From positions 360,363-424,362 of the forward strand of contig JAFYYH010000021.1 of assembly GCA_017557635.1 (NCBI GenBank): a DNA stretch of 64,000 nucleotides. Reading direction: 5' to 3'. This stretch comes from Bacteroidaceae bacterium (GTDB lineage Bacteria; Bacteroidota; Bacteroidia; Bacteroidales; Bacteroidaceae). How positions within the stretch are numbered: position 1 is the stretch's first letter; the number at the start of each line of letters is the position of its first letter. Positions 30,883 to 35,764 of the stretch are shown here, one piece after another. The notes under the pieces are model-generated. The model saw only the letters and a program-made list of their open reading frames with translations, did no database searches and was not told the origin of the DNA. A program made the position numbers and the translations under genes.

Positions 30883-30890
30883 TATGTTTG
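30883..30890 (+). promoter_or_regulatory. -7 element (TATGTTTG) of the DUF6057/radical SAM operon
   Basis: Exact TAnnTTTG match 24 bp before the ATG at 30915. No TTTG at -33 spacing. It excludes the upstream in-frame start at 30783. Confidence 0.5.
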
Positions 30891-30914: not shown

Positions 30915-32669
30915 ATGATGAGAAGATATAGAATTGCTGATGTTGCTCTGGCAGGGTTTACGTTGGTGGGTTTATGGATCATTTTCTCGGTTCAAGCACC
31001 TTACCGCCTGGAATTCAAAGAGCAGATCAGCATATTCCTTTTTGGCGCCGACCGTATCAGCTGGTATTTGTCAAACCCGGGAATCATTTCTTCTGTTACT
31101 GGTGACTGGCTGACTCAGTTCTACATCAACGGAAGGATTGCCGCCGCTCTGAGTTGCCTGCTTTTGCTGCTGATTACAGCCGGACTCGTCCGATTCCACC
31201 GGCTGGCCGGTTCAAAGCATAAGTTGGTTCTTATGTTCCTTATGATTCCGGTGGCTTTGGAAGGTTATTTCATAACATTTCCCGATTATCCCGTATCGGC
31301 CGCTTTAGGACTTGCCGTTGCCGTATGGTCGGCCTGTGCACTGGCTCATATCAAAGACTCAAGACTATCACCATGGATATACGGCCTCTCCGTTCCGGTA
31401 ATGTTCGTGATAGCCGGCGGACACGCTTTCACCATGGCCCTGTTACTGGGCTATCTGAAAAGAAAGGATGCTGCAGCAACCGTGATATGCCTTGTTGCGG
31501 GACTGATTGCAATGGCGCTGTGCGGAAGGTTTTATAATCTGACGCTGCTGCACACTTTCATCTGGCCCGTCTATCCCAAACATATTATCCCCGATAAAGG
31601 ACTGCTCATACTGCAGCCGTTGCTGATACTGGCCGTGATGTCACTGAACCATCTGTTCTTCAGGATAGGTAAGGAACGCATTATGGTGGGTGTCTTATTG
31701 GGTATGGCGTTTTTAATTCAGGTGTTGTTTATAACCACTCGTGACAAGGAGTTGGAGAATGTGGTCAAGATAGGCACATTGGCATACAGAAATGAATGGA
31801 AAGAGGTGAAGGAAATGGCGGGTTCGAACGAGCCCAATATGTACCGTAACTTCTACTGGAATCTCTGTGGTGCACGTGAGGGCCGTCTTGCTGATGACCT
31901 GCTCAAAGGCCGATGGGGTTCCTCTTCCAGCAGCCTGTTCCTTTCAACCGGCAGGAATGACCCCTATTTCTCAATGATGTATTTTACCGATGCACTGCTG
32001 GAGATAGGCGATGTATCTCAGGCTACTGACTGCGCCCTTCTGGCACAGACCGTAATGCCGGGCCATTATTCCACACGTATGTTGCGAAGACTGGCCGAGA
32101 TAGCGGTAGTGACAGGTGATTACGCAGTGGCTTCGAAATACCTTGACATCCTGTCCCGCACAAGGAATCACAGAGAGTGGGCCCGGGATTTGCAGGAGAG
32201 CATAAACCGTGATGAAATCCCGGAGCAGTATCTTATCTGGCGTTCCCGCACAGCTTCCAAGGACCATTTCTTCGGTCAGGGCGACATAAGGTCATCACTC
32301 AAGATAATAGCACAGGAGTCACCGTACAACAGGACTGCCATAGATTATCTGCTCTGTTCATTGCTCCTTGACAAGAATTTAAACTCGTTCATTGACTACT
32401 ATGACAGGTATTACCTCAATGCGCTTGATCGAATTGTCAGAGTCCCCGATCTTTATCAGGAGGCTTTGATGGTTAATGTGAATTCCGACGAGTCGTTGAG
32501 GGCTACGGTAGAGAAATACCATATATCGCAGGAGGTGGTAGAAAAATTCATGAACCTGATGGCGGCCAGGGCAAGGTCCGAAAATGGAGAAGTACTTACC
32601 GAAGAGTCGGTTGGTACGTATTGGAACTATATCATGGCTGTCAAATTAATCAGCGGAAACCAGAGATGA
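30915..32669 (+). CDS. DUF6057-type membrane protein with a TPR-like C-terminus
   Basis: A 584-residue protein. Residues 10-275 hold about eight to ten hydrophobic segments. The remaining 300 residues are soluble and helical, with TPR-like pairs (for example the segments around DVSQATDCALLAQTVMPGHYS and DYAVASKYLDILSR). The layout fits the DUF6057 family of Bacteroidales, whose function is unknown. It is the first of four co-directional genes; its stop overlaps the next start by 4 bp. The downstream genes encode two lipoproteins and a radical SAM/SPASM enzyme, so a role in exporting or handling a modified envelope protein is a reasonable guess, no more. Confidence 0.7.
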   Translation: MMRRYRIADVALAGFTLVGLWIIFSVQAPYRLEFKEQISIFLFGADRISWYLSNPGIISSVTGDWLTQFYINGRIAAALSCLLLLLITAGLVRFHRLAGSKHKLVLMFLMIPVALEGYFITFPDYPVSAALGLAVAVWSACALAHIKDSRLSPWIYGLSVPVMFVIAGGHAFTMALLLGYLKRKDAAATVICLVAGLIAMALCGRFYNLTLLHTFIWPVYPKHIIPDKGLLILQPLLILAVMSLNHLFFRIGKERIMVGVLLGMAFLIQVLFITTRDKELENVVKIGTLAYRNEWKEVKEMAGSNEPNMYRNFYWNLCGAREGRLADDLLKGRWGSSSSSLFLSTGRNDPYFSMMYFTDALLEIGDVSQATDCALLAQTVMPGHYSTRMLRRLAEIAVVTGDYAVASKYLDILSRTRNHREWARDLQESINRDEIPEQYLIWRSRTASKDHFFGQGDIRSSLKIIAQESPYNRTAIDYLLCSLLLDKNLNSFIDYYDRYYLNALDRIVRVPDLYQEALMVNVNSDESLRATVEKYHISQEVVEKFMNLMAARARSENGEVLTEESVGTYWNYIMAVKLISGNQR

Positions 32670-34102
32670 GATACAGGATTATCATAATATCGGCTATTGC
32701 GGCATTTGTATTTGCAGGTTGTTCAAAAAGGGTGGCCGACACAGGTGCGGGCATGTTTCCGGATTACCGAGATGTCACCGTCCCCTGCAATATCGCACCG
32801 CTGAATTTCAGGACGGCCGGTTACAACAGCTCGGTCGTTGTCCGGGGAAGCAATGACAGCTATGAATTCAAGGGTCATAAAGGACTGGTAAAGTTTCCCC
32901 TGAAGAAATGGCGCAGAATGATGGAAGCCGAAAAAGGCAATACCGTGACTGTCACCGTAACGCCCCAAGGAAACGGCTATGGCGAATCCGACAAGATGGA
33001 GTTTACATGGACGATATCGCCTGAGCCGATAGACAAATATCTGAGTTACCGACTGATAGAACCTGCATATGAGGTTTGGAGCGGAATCCAGATTGAACAG
33101 CGTGACATGGAGAGTTTCGGCACCGTTCTGTTGGGTGACAACCGTAATGCGGAACTCTGCTGCATGAACTGTCACACTTCAAACCGTAATGGAACTACTT
33201 TCATGCACCTTCGCGGTTCAAAGGGCGGCACCATACTCAACCGTAACGGCAAACTGCAGAAACTGAACACCCGTACCGAGAATACAGGTAATACCGTCTA
33301 TGGTGACATATCGGCCGACGGCCGTTACGGAGTGTTCACTACCGCCGACATTACATTTGCCATACACAGCCGGGTTGATATGAGAATGGAGGTGTATGAC
33401 AAGCGCAGTGACCTGGTGGTGGTTGATTTTGACAACCTGACCGTTACCGAAAGTCCGGCCACTACAGGCGATGAGTATCAGGAGACATTCCCCTGCTTCT
33501 CGGCCGACGGAAAGATCATCTTCTTCTGCCGTGCCAGTCATCATGAACAACCGGACAGCATATCCGATATGCATTATGACATAGCGGTCATGCAGTTTGA
33601 TCCTGAAACCGGAAAGATGGGAGACAGGGTGATTACCATTGTCCCCGCCGGCGAGAACCTGTCGTTCAGTCATCTCAAGACTTCACCCGACGGCCGCTGG
33701 CTCATGGCGACTGCAGCCAAGTACGGCACATTCCCGGTATGGCATAAGGAGAGTGACCTCTGGCTCATAGACCTGGAAACTCAGAAGATCGATCCTCTGG
33801 CCGGGGTCAATGCATACGGTGCCGATACCTATCACAGTTGGAGCAGTAACAGCCGCTGGGTGGTATTTGCATCCAAGCGTGATGATCTGGTGTACGGCCG
33901 TCCCTACATCGCGTATATCGGCCCGGACGGAACGACCGGAAAACCGTTCCTGCTTCCGCAAGAGGATCCGGACAAGTACACCACGACCCTCAAGTCGTTT
34001 AACCTTCCGGAGCTGTATCCTATATCAGAAGTGTATAGTTCACGCACTGTGGCTTCATTCTACAAGGATGTTGAAACAGAGCAGGTTCAATATAAACCAT
34101 AA
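32666..34102 (+). CDS. PD40-repeat lipoprotein with a CxxCH motif
   Basis: A 478-residue predicted lipoprotein with a clear lipobox (FAGC, Cys19). The second half is a TolB-like beta-propeller built from PD40-type repeats (DISADGRYGVFT, FSADGKIIFFCRASH, TSPDGRWLMATAAKYG, WSSNSRWVVFASKRD). Before it, at residues 165-170, lies CCMNCH, which includes a CxxCH haem c attachment motif followed by TSNRNG. If haem is attached the protein would be a periplasmic or surface cytochrome; otherwise the cysteines may bind metal. It overlaps the DUF6057 gene by 4 bp and precedes the small lipoprotein by 5 bp. Confidence 0.75.
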   Translation: MRYRIIIISAIAAFVFAGCSKRVADTGAGMFPDYRDVTVPCNIAPLNFRTAGYNSSVVVRGSNDSYEFKGHKGLVKFPLKKWRRMMEAEKGNTVTVTVTPQGNGYGESDKMEFTWTISPEPIDKYLSYRLIEPAYEVWSGIQIEQRDMESFGTVLLGDNRNAELCCMNCHTSNRNGTTFMHLRGSKGGTILNRNGKLQKLNTRTENTGNTVYGDISADGRYGVFTTADITFAIHSRVDMRMEVYDKRSDLVVVDFDNLTVTESPATTGDEYQETFPCFSADGKIIFFCRASHHEQPDSISDMHYDIAVMQFDPETGKMGDRVITIVPAGENLSFSHLKTSPDGRWLMATAAKYGTFPVWHKESDLWLIDLETQKIDPLAGVNAYGADTYHSWSSNSRWVVFASKRDDLVYGRPYIAYIGPDGTTGKPFLLPQEDPDKYTTTLKSFNLPELYPISEVYSSRTVASFYKDVETEQVQYKP

Positions 34103-34107
34103 TTATC

Positions 34108-34515
34108 ATGGCTTACAAAAGATTCAGAATAGTTCTGTCCAAAGGGTGGACCCTGCTGGTCTGCACCTTTTCAGTAGCAGTCCTTGCCCTGACCGTTTCA
34201 TGCCGTAGCAAAAAGGTAAACAAACAGGCAGAACCGGAACCCTCCGGTGACGAGCCGCCACGGGAAGCGGAAGATGTGAATATCCGCAGATCGGCCGATG
34301 ATCTGGCTCCCATGCTCACCCTGCCCGGTGATTCAAAGGAGGTCAAGGATATGATTAATCAGGTCAATTCACTTAAAGATGAGTTGTCCGGCCGTATGAG
34401 TTCCGTTATCTACGGTCCTCCTGAAGTCATGCAGCGTCGCGCCCAGGAGAACAGGGATATGCGTGCCAGGATCGATTCACTCTCAAACGAAATAAACAAG
34501 GCCCGTAACAAGTAA
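34108..34515 (+). CDS. Small lipoprotein of a radical SAM/lipoprotein system
   Basis: A 135-residue predicted lipoprotein. The hydrophobic segment (residues 15-31) ends LTVSC at Cys32, then RSKK. A Pro/Glu-rich stretch follows, then a coiled-coil-like C-terminal half containing the motif SSVIYGPPEVMQRRA. From memory it fits the small lipoprotein family (TIGR04134-like) found beside TIGR04133 radical SAM enzymes in Bacteroidales. Its stop codon overlaps the start of the radical SAM gene by one base, so the two are translationally coupled, and the lipoprotein is the likely substrate. The site of any modification is not known; the conserved-looking YGPPE is a candidate. Confidence 0.7.
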   Translation: MAYKRFRIVLSKGWTLLVCTFSVAVLALTVSCRSKKVNKQAEPEPSGDEPPREAEDVNIRRSADDLAPMLTLPGDSKEVKDMINQVNSLKDELSGRMSSVIYGPPEVMQRRAQENRDMRARIDSLSNEINKARNK

Positions 34516-35597
34516 TGGATTGCAAACTCTCTCTCCCCAAAAGACTTATTCTTGAAACCGGCAGGGCTGCACTCAGGACCGAGGCGTTGGAGCATAAACT
34601 GACCCAACTCTTCTGGGAGTGTACTCTACGCTGTAATTTAAGCTGCCGTCATTGCGGAAGTGACTGCCGCAAGACCGCCGGAATGGAAGATCCTCCTATG
34701 AGCGATCTGCTGGGGGTGCTTGACAGTTGTCCCAAGGATTTTGACCGTGGCCGATGCGTAATCATTACAACCGGCGGTGAGCCGATGGTCCGCAAGGATA
34801 TTCTCCAGGTGGGAGCCGAGATAAAGAAACGCGGTTTCCTGTGGGGAATGGTCTCCAACGGCATGCTGCTTACCCGTGAGAAGGTAAACGAACTTGTGGA
34901 GACAGGTCTTGACACCATAGGAATGAGTTTTGACGGATTTGAGGAGGAACATAACTGGATGCGTGGCAGTGACCTGAGTTTCAAGCGTGCCGATGCCGCC
35001 ATCGACTGGTTCAAAGAACACAAGGGTCTTACCTGGGACCTTATCACTTGCGTGAACAAGCGTAACTTTGCATATCTGGATAAGTTCAAGGAGTATCTGA
35101 TAAGCCGTGGAGTGAGACAGTGGCGAATCTTTACCGTAGCGCCTATGGGACGTGCCGCCGGTGATGATGACCTGATGATTTCCAACGAGCAGTACGTGCA
35201 GCTTATGAATTACATAGCATCCGTACGTCGTGAAGGCCGAATCCGTCTCAACTACTCTTGTGAAGGATTCCTGGGACCCTATGAAGGTGTGGTCCGCGAC
35301 CATGTGTTCCGCTGTGTGGCCGGACTGTCGGTCGCTTCAATCAGATATGACGGCGCCATCTCCGGTTGCCTGAGCATACGCAGCGACTACAATCAGGGTA
35401 ATATCCATACAGATAATTTCTGGGATCTGTGGGAGAACAGTTTCAAACTGTACCGCGACCGCAAGTGGATGAAAAAGGATGAGTGCCGCGACTGCAAGGT
35501 TTGGCGTTACTGCCAGGGCGGTGCCATGCACCTTCGTGACGGCGAAGGCAAGATTCTGACCTGCAATTACCTTAAGATCAAAAACGCTGGCGAATAA
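34515..35597 (+). CDS. Radical SAM/SPASM enzyme of the rSAM/lipoprotein system (TIGR04133-like)
   Basis: A 360-residue radical SAM protein. The canonical CxxxCxxC motif is at Cys40, Cys44 and Cys47 (CNLSCRHC). The TTGGEPMVRKD segment supplies the GGE-type SAM contact. The C-terminal SPASM domain has cysteines at 267, 285, 324, 327, 333 and 350, enough for two auxiliary 4Fe-4S clusters. SPASM enzymes usually modify a peptide encoded nearby by thioether or carbon-carbon crosslinks or side-chain oxidation. Here the coupled gene encodes a 135-residue lipoprotein rather than a short precursor peptide. The chemistry is unknown. It is the last gene of the operon. Confidence 0.85.
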   Translation: MDCKLSLPKRLILETGRAALRTEALEHKLTQLFWECTLRCNLSCRHCGSDCRKTAGMEDPPMSDLLGVLDSCPKDFDRGRCVIITTGGEPMVRKDILQVGAEIKKRGFLWGMVSNGMLLTREKVNELVETGLDTIGMSFDGFEEEHNWMRGSDLSFKRADAAIDWFKEHKGLTWDLITCVNKRNFAYLDKFKEYLISRGVRQWRIFTVAPMGRAAGDDDLMISNEQYVQLMNYIASVRREGRIRLNYSCEGFLGPYEGVVRDHVFRCVAGLSVASIRYDGAISGCLSIRSDYNQGNIHTDNFWDLWENSFKLYRDRKWMKKDECRDCKVWRYCQGGAMHLRDGEGKILTCNYLKIKNAGE

Positions 35598-35630: not shown

Positions 35631-35662
35631 TTTGCCTACATCCGCAAAAAGGCATAATTTTG
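35631..35662 (+). promoter_or_regulatory. Promoter of tRNA-Lys
   Basis: TTTG at 35631-35634 and TAATTTTG at 35655-35662 have 20-bp spacing, a full Bacteroidota consensus, 26 bp before the tRNA. Confidence 0.8.
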
Positions 35663-35688
35663 CACCCGCTTAACAGCAATTAGAGGTA

Positions 35689-35764
35689 GATCCGCTAGCT
35701 CAGCAGGTAGAGCACATCCCTTTTAAGGATGGGGTCTCGGGTTCGAACCCCGAGCGGATCACCA
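35689..35764 (+). tRNA. tRNA-Lys (anticodon TTT)
   Basis: Perfect acceptor GATCCGC / GCGGATC, D arm AGCTCAGCAGGTAGAGC, anticodon stem ATCCC / GGGAT-type with loop CTTTTAA (anticodon TTT), T arm with GTTCGAA and discriminator A followed by an encoded CCA. Confidence 0.96.

Follow-up and report, generated by a model that had tools for sequence, protein, structure and literature searches.

Radical S-adenosylmethionine (SAM) enzymes with a SPASM domain catalyze several different peptide reactions, and TIGR04103 is the family among them that we take to be that of PlpX. Two further NCBIfam entries, the enzyme family TIGR04133 and the lipoprotein family TIGR04134, carry no stated function. This study concerns a TIGR04133 enzyme and the genes around it in a 64,000-nucleotide stretch of a Bacteroidaceae genome (assembly GCA_017557635.1, contig JAFYYH010000021.1, positions 360,363 to 424,362; hereafter the window), where four genes, A-B-C-D, follow one another on the + strand at positions 30915-35597, as defined by open reading frame (ORF) calls, with a lipoprotein gene, C, directly upstream of the enzyme gene, D.

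In the splicease literature (PMC10533398, PMC11002830, PMC10373908, PMC11117315, PMC9415263, and PMC8326336), PlpX-type enzymes are reported to excise tyramine at an X-Tyr-Gly (XYG) site, the published target of PlpXY, for which MYG and LYG are natural sites. Tags on FtsZ that derive from RPGYGLPI are described there as modified at two tested places and as failing at others, and PlpXY tags other than RPGYGLPI lack a Pro two residues after YG. Reviews state that the splicing reaction is widespread in bacteria and that spliceotide products inhibit proteases, and PMC10533398 demonstrates tetrazine labelling of the ketoamide for a GYG-derived product.

We show here the gene order and protein families at the window locus, an X-Tyr-Gly-x-Pro motif (XYGxP) in proteins encoded beside D, a leader sequence shared by C and unlinked exported proteins, and the co-occurrence of that leader with D across a genus. 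By analogy with PlpX, we consider it on balance probable that C and D form a splicease-like module with several exported substrates, in which tyramine would be excised at XYGxP. Because other exported proteins share both the start sequence of C and its motif, a single enzyme may be altering the backbone in many of them.

The C-D pair and its Tyr-Gly site

The coordinates, strand, and broad classes of the four genes are as the original prediction had them, as is their spacing, with a 4-bp ATGA overlap at the A/B junction, a 5-bp gap between B and C, and a 1-bp TAATG overlap at C/D. The features of the locus are as follows.

30883..30890, + strand: candidate operon promoter, a weak Bacteroidetes-type -7 element TATGTTTG of the TAnnTTTG pattern
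30915..32669, + strand: A, DUF6057 membrane protein (PF19529), 584 residues
32666..34102, + strand: B, PD40-repeat lipoprotein with one CxxCH, 478 residues
33161..33175, + strand: CxxCH of B (residues 166-170), possible c-type haem site
34108..34515, + strand: C, 135-residue lipoprotein outside TIGR04134, predicted substrate of D
34108..34221, + strand: leader of C, a signal peptide with conserved S-K-G-W, common to unlinked XYG proteins
34408..34422, + strand: I-Y-G-P-P of C, with the predicted modification site Y102-G103 at the turn where a predicted helical hairpin folds back
34515..35597, + strand: D, TIGR04133 radical SAM/SPASM enzyme, 360 residues
34632..34655, + strand: radical SAM CxxxCxxC of D (C40, C44, C47)
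35259..35564, + strand: SPASM region of D with seven conserved Cys (249, 267, 285, 324, 327, 333, 350)

D scores 491.7 bits against TIGR04133, above the curated cut-off of 425, and the CxxxCxxC and SPASM cysteines that mark this family are conserved in it, so that its placement in a named but uncharacterized family is borne out. The three radical SAM cysteines are those predicted; at the C terminus, seven conserved cysteines were counted instead of the six proposed. Judged by eye, D has no signal peptide. C, in turn, is a lipoprotein by pattern, with lipobox Cys32 invariant in 15 aligned sequences, but it does not belong to TIGR04134 as had been thought: it gives no match up to E=10 (curated cut-off 39.8 bits), its relatives at loci L166 and L171 matched no NCBIfam model at E<=0.001, and three weak TIGR04134 matches in genome G000 all lie elsewhere and below the cut-off. 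The named pair thus holds for the enzyme only.

The 15 aligned C proteins, that of the window included, have a mean column identity of 31%, and their only invariant columns are M1, W14, C32, Y102, G103, P105, and E114. Y102 is the sole Tyr of C outside the signal peptide, and the IYG in which it stands (SSVIYGPPEVM) gives D an adjacent candidate substrate with X-Tyr-Gly, as in PlpX-type clusters. AlphaFold2 places Y102-G103 between two helices predicted with confidence (77-98 and 105-134), in a block with a predicted local distance difference test (pLDDT) score >90 within a model that averages 72 and falls below 50 at residues 33-60. The tryptic peptide of C, MSSVIYGPPEVMQR, has a computed mass of 1592.769 Da.

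Across other loci the ORFs that precede D are of very different lengths and types, and many of them retain XYGxP. A first count covered 75 D loci and lipobox-filtered ORFs within 260 bp upstream: such an ORF was found in 41, with YG.P (YG, any residue, Pro) in 36/41 and YG in 39/41, as against 1/128 and 20/128 for lipobox ORFs at other places in these stretches; of the lipobox ORFs that follow D, 6/33 carried YG.P. A second count, to which named and two plasmid loci were added, comprised 156 loci (152 with D), reduced at 85% identity to 112, of which 108 have >300 bp of upstream sequence. Here an upstream ORF within 300 bp carried YG.P in 70 and YG in 86 of the 108, and a control of mechanical ORFs >3 kb away, many of them no genes, gave YG.P in 16 of 2013. 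When the longest adjacent ORF was chosen blind to the motif, YG.P was present in 64/99, with 1.6 expected from shuffles. YG directly follows the lipobox Cys in 17 of 61 lipobox proteins, hereafter the CYGxP class.

A signal-peptide Trp, tried as a general mark of these lipoproteins, was set aside (32/61 vs. 29/91 controls, a weak difference). At L235, L236, and L245 (Muribaculaceae and Prevotellaceae), the upstream partners of D bear CVYGPP close to the N terminus and no lipobox by pattern, and that of L245 has a C-terminal hydrophobic, tail-anchor-like segment.

A leader shared with unlinked exported proteins

Searched in 15 genomes, the C alignment returned C and, in the window's genome and its relatives, partial matches on unlinked genes, mostly confined to the first ~50 residues. 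The matched proteins are mostly different exported proteins that share the start M-x-x-R-x-[RK]-[IV]-x-x-[SA]-[KR]-G-W and carry an XYG, which the weakest of them (L307) lacks. A 38-residue leader profile built from 14 sequences gave 51 matches at E<=1e-6 in the 15 genomes, seven of which are C itself, spread over all 12 genomes with D; the best match in the three genomes without D has E=0.007. All 44 non-C matches were read. Among the 42 with at least 40 residues after the leader, YG is present in 41, and in 38 a Pro comes no more than five residues after YG, by a spacing criterion fixed once the motifs had been seen, with 14.3 and 4.1 expected from shuffling; without the eight seed rows, the counts are 33/34 and 30/34. 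The four misses comprise a broken copy without YG (L369), two proteins with YG but no such Pro (L344, L372), and one with YG inside another domain (L366). Five genomes that have D but no C beside it (G251, G561-G564) hold two to six unlinked leader genes each. Some leader proteins lack a lipobox, and of the seven scanned two score above the Pfam threshold for a carboxypeptidase-regulatory-like domain, which one more misses by 0.2 bits.

In 37 genomes of the genus, D occurs in 22 and the leader (E<=1e-4) in 25: both are present in 20, D only in two, the leader only in five, and neither in 10. The leader is found in 20/22 genomes with D and in 5/15 without it (Fisher p=0.0007; part of the leader-profile rows came from this set of genomes), and in 18/22 vs. 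5/15 when matches adjoining D are excluded (p=0.005). Unlinked leader genes number 66 in D-containing and six in D-less genomes (Mann-Whitney p=7e-5), with one of the 66 (G266, contig 2) adjoining a partial second copy of D.

That D modifies the lipoprotein to which it is coupled, as the original prediction held, is the best reading of these data, although both the XYG motif and the unlinked proteins with the same leader had been missed. It is improbable that D leaves C unmodified and acts on another target, XYGxP then being a structural or sorting motif of a co-transcribed lipoprotein: C is indeed missing beside D in four window-type loci and D stands alone in one, but the position of the motif varies from +1 to >+100 after the lipid-bearing Cys, its contexts differ (carboxypeptidase-regulatory-like domains downstream, a helical protein, proteins without a lipobox), and unlinked proteins whose presence follows that of D bear the leader and the motif as well.

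Several leader genes lie in distinctive surroundings. On contig 21 of the window's genome, four leader-bearing XYG genes surround a protein with the string YVDLGLSVKWATCNVGA (L342:4630-8499; the unlinked candidate substrate at L342:5222-5512 reads RLMYGVQIPP), and the same kind of YVDLGLSVKWATCNVGA protein stands beside leader genes again in L350 and L361. In genome G562, the genes immediately ahead of leader-bearing XYG genes appear to encode an extracytoplasmic function (ECF) sigma factor and its anti-sigma partner (L351:259-4997). The partial second D of G266 abuts a contig edge and is followed at once by a leader-bearing XYG gene (KQLYGPAA; L124:1-1210).

The A-B pair as a separate module

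A and B are of the classes first assigned to them. A is a DUF6057 protein (PF19529, 326.5 bits vs. a Pfam gathering score of 29.8), and B combines PD40 repeats with a single CxxCH at residues 166-170, which could carry haem, as a cytochrome c assembly gene is present in the window's genome. The proposal of a dedicated four-gene machine did not survive the neighborhood comparison that had been named as its test, in which the four genes are not kept together in related genomes. In 80 stretches compared, 75 of which contain D, A and B both adjoin D in 3/75 (L121, L122, and L123, all of the window's genus). A match to the B profile without A occurs at L157 (22 bits) and L194 (336 bits), the latter a 696-residue protein without CxxCH that looks peptidase-like by eye. 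A further set of 76 loci on named contigs includes 13 closest ones with a whole D (66-94% identical; L268, with a partial D, was dropped, and L214 covers only about 2.8 kb upstream of C), arranged as A-B-C-D in five, A-B-D in four, C-D without A-B in three, and D alone in one. Taken with the window and L121, these (L212-L224) make 15 window-type loci, with seven, four, three, and one of the respective arrangements; L122 and L123 were left out because they lie on the same contigs as L215 and L224. In the loci examined, A-B adjoins D only in the window's own group, of which 7/15 loci have the complete order, and neither A nor B was found at E<=1e-20 in the L225-L287 stretches, several of which have little sequence upstream of D.

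A-B pairs without C-D were found at L125, L126, L127, L199, and L200. In two of these cases, L199 (G266) and L200 (G171), the pair stands apart while D lies elsewhere in the same genome, and Parabacteroides distasonis has the pair twice in tandem, again without C-D. DUF6057 is itself a large paralogous family; of 121 genomes from the bacterial family, 93 carry it. Since A-B is found without C-D and C-D without A-B, they are two modules, joined at the window locus, and A is a companion of B, probably accessory or unrelated to the modification. That A-D nevertheless act as one machine, with A and B placing or maturing the modified lipoprotein in the envelope, would fit the tight spacing in the window and in 7/15 window-type loci as well as a haem-bearing B, but separate A-B pairs in genomes with D elsewhere, the tandem in P. 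distasonis, and the L225-L287 stretches make it very unlikely.

B was also considered, and rejected, as the substrate of D where C is missing: its VYGRP is not specific, as it falls in the PD40 part and is present in a B copy at L126 (G235), in a genome without D at E<=1e-60. Relatives without D show another arrangement in place of a single operon: at L125:4265-7419 and L126:4335-10767, the A and B homologs converge, their 3' ends overlapping.

The single -7 element placed ahead of the operon can be kept in part. A TAnnTTTG sequence does lie at 30883-30890, but this 8-mer is frequent in the window (39 found vs. 25.75 expected), and the variant of the pattern that also requires an upstream TTTG has no match there. 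An element with an upstream TTTG, TAATTTTG, precedes the tRNA-Lys(ttt) gene just downstream of D (35655-35764), the tRNA itself lying 3' of D at 35689-35764.

Proposed chemistry and comparison with known systems

Outside its own family, D scores 122.5 bits against TIGR04103 (far from the membership cut-off of 725), 121 against AhbD, 119.4 against NirJ2, 114 against TIGR04053, and 111 against TIGR03913 (GDL). In a tree of 43 sequences, 27 TIGR04133 rows form one group with support of 100/100, which joins the TIGR04103/GDL group and not PqqE, MftC, TIGR04053, or TIGR04347. Similarity was not accepted as proving splicease chemistry, because the scores of D against several SPASM families are alike and the tree was built without AhbD and NirJ; sequence alone does not decide, so it is the motif that carries the case for tyramine excision. 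On a Nostoc plasmid, a TIGR04103 enzyme (853 bits vs. 725) adjoins a Nif11 precursor ending in GGRGSIALYGLPPELF, where ALYGLPPELF can be set beside VIYGPPEVM of C. Distinctly less likely than excision, though deserving weight, is that D acts on the same Tyr or its neighbors by other radical SAM chemistry with nothing excised, be it a side-chain or backbone crosslink, oxidative decarboxylation-like chemistry, or epimerization, in which case XYGxP would still be the substrate site. The range of peptide reactions among SPASM enzymes, the nearly equal scores of D against AhbD, NirJ2, TIGR04053, and TIGR04103, and the presence of YG-bearing small proteins also beside GDL-motif enzymes all speak for such chemistry; against it stand the published excision motif, which is XYG, the RPGYGLPI FtsZ tags modified at two tested sites, and the likeness of YGLPPE in the Nostoc precursor to YGPPE in C.

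Tyramine excision by a leader-guided D has several observations to contend with. By sequence, D is no nearer TIGR04103 than AhbD or NirJ2; for 37 A2 rows, the best E-values outside TIGR04133 rank TIGR04053, AhbD, and TIGR04103 in that order; and the join on the TIGR04103 side has support of just 88/79, with long branches and in a tree without AhbD and NirJ. No PqqD-type or RiPP recognition element (RRE)-type domain, where RiPP denotes a ribosomally synthesized and posttranslationally modified peptide, and no small PlpY-like partner of that type was found among A-D, whereas PlpX works with PlpY. In addition to the window-type loci without C described above, the adjacent upstream ORF lacks YG.P in 38/108 loci and YG in 22/108. 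Some of these 38 have YG and then Pro at another spacing (e.g., L241, L249, L251, L262, and L281) or encode a YG.P protein on the 3' side of D or at a greater distance upstream (L144, L150, L152, L264, L265, and L272), and at others no such protein was found; L290 was scored as a miss, probably because of the ORF length limit in the count, although its annotated lipoprotein has CEYGSP. The leader is absent from two genomes with D (G574, G578) and present in five without it (G571, G575, G582, G588, and G591, 62-87% complete), in a co-occurrence test that includes many incomplete assemblies as well as related, hence not independent, genomes, and eight of the 14 leader-profile rows are not blind, since they come from ORFs listed partly by YG.

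The sole PqqD-domain gene found in the window's genome was dismissed as a partner of D, as it sits in a different cluster. It encodes an 89-residue protein in a lasso-type-looking cluster on contig 15 (L378:108-1704), behind what appear to be signal-peptidase-like and HPr-kinase-like genes.

Under the splicease reading, D, apparently without a signal peptide, would meet its substrate in the cytoplasm before export and recognize the signal-peptide region, which, being conserved on otherwise different proteins, may double as the leader. It would then act by radical SAM chemistry at Tyr-Gly, as the motif suggests, and, in the least certain step, by analogy, excise tyramine, after which the modified protein would be exported and, where a lipobox is present, lipidated. 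Unlinked leader-bearing XYG proteins of the same genome would be served by D too, and A and B would be a separate envelope pair that joined the C-D locus in the window's group. In the CYGxP class, X would be the lipid-bearing Cys, the amine and thiol of which would remain, so lipidation seems possible.

More tentatively, and with confidence a little short of even, we suggest that a single TIGR04133 enzyme splices the backbones of dispersed exported proteins, recognized through a leader within their signal peptides, by which Bacteroidota would display alpha-ketoamide (beta-amino acid) sites on periplasmic or surface proteins. If so, radical SAM protein splicing would not be confined to natural products, and gut and rumen Bacteroidota would alter many of their exported proteins. 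The electrophilic ketoamides left behind could inhibit proteases, as the literature reports for spliceotides, displayed ketoamides serving, for example, as covalent protease traps, and in the CYGxP class the lipid-bearing cysteine would itself be the converted residue. TIGR04133 and TIGR04134 would thereby gain a proposed site and reaction. The newest element is the set of dispersed leader-bearing substrates, the enzyme family itself being already named. Literature searches for TIGR04133 with lipoprotein, TIGR04134, SAM-associated putative lipoprotein, and DUF6057 returned nothing in the collection searched, though Scott et al. 2022 may cover these enzymes; the part of the splicease literature judged by title held nothing on Bacteroidota lipoproteins, and the main text of a Bacteroidales RiPP survey (PMC10352776) contains neither "lipoprotein" nor "splice."

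Three described systems come closest. The GDL system (TIGR03913 with DUF1843) likewise places a related SPASM enzyme beside small proteins, several with YG close to the N terminus, but its partners are short and without a lipobox, and the motif continues as LYGGAM or PYGVAI. In the window's family, a TIGR04103/GDL-like radical SAM enzyme (G179, L205:1468-3599) is followed by a 214-residue protein in which K-Y-G-Y-P recurs, five times as KYGYPC and last as KYGYPGC, so that it looks like a YG substrate with multiple sites. The TIGR04133/TIGR04134 system shares with the window an enzyme above the family cut-off and a lipoprotein gene immediately before it, an arrangement also present in the spirochete Treponema saccharophilum and in P. 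distasonis, whereas C lies outside TIGR04134 and is predicted to be of a helical-hairpin type, and its leader also occurs on unlinked genes in the window's group. The Treponema pair, on plasmid pTS1 (L289:3806-6098), adjoins an Mpi-type DNA invertase gene, which suggests transfer of TIGR04133/TIGR04134 between phyla. Finally, the PlpX spliceases (Pleurocapsa PlpXY, Nostoc TIGR04103) resemble C-D in that a SPASM radical SAM enzyme adjoins an X-Tyr-Gly-x-Pro protein, but D scores far below the TIGR04103 cut-off, its operon has neither a Nif11 leader nor a visible PlpY-like partner, and its predicted substrates are lipoproteins and secreted proteins in which the signal peptide apparently doubles as the leader.

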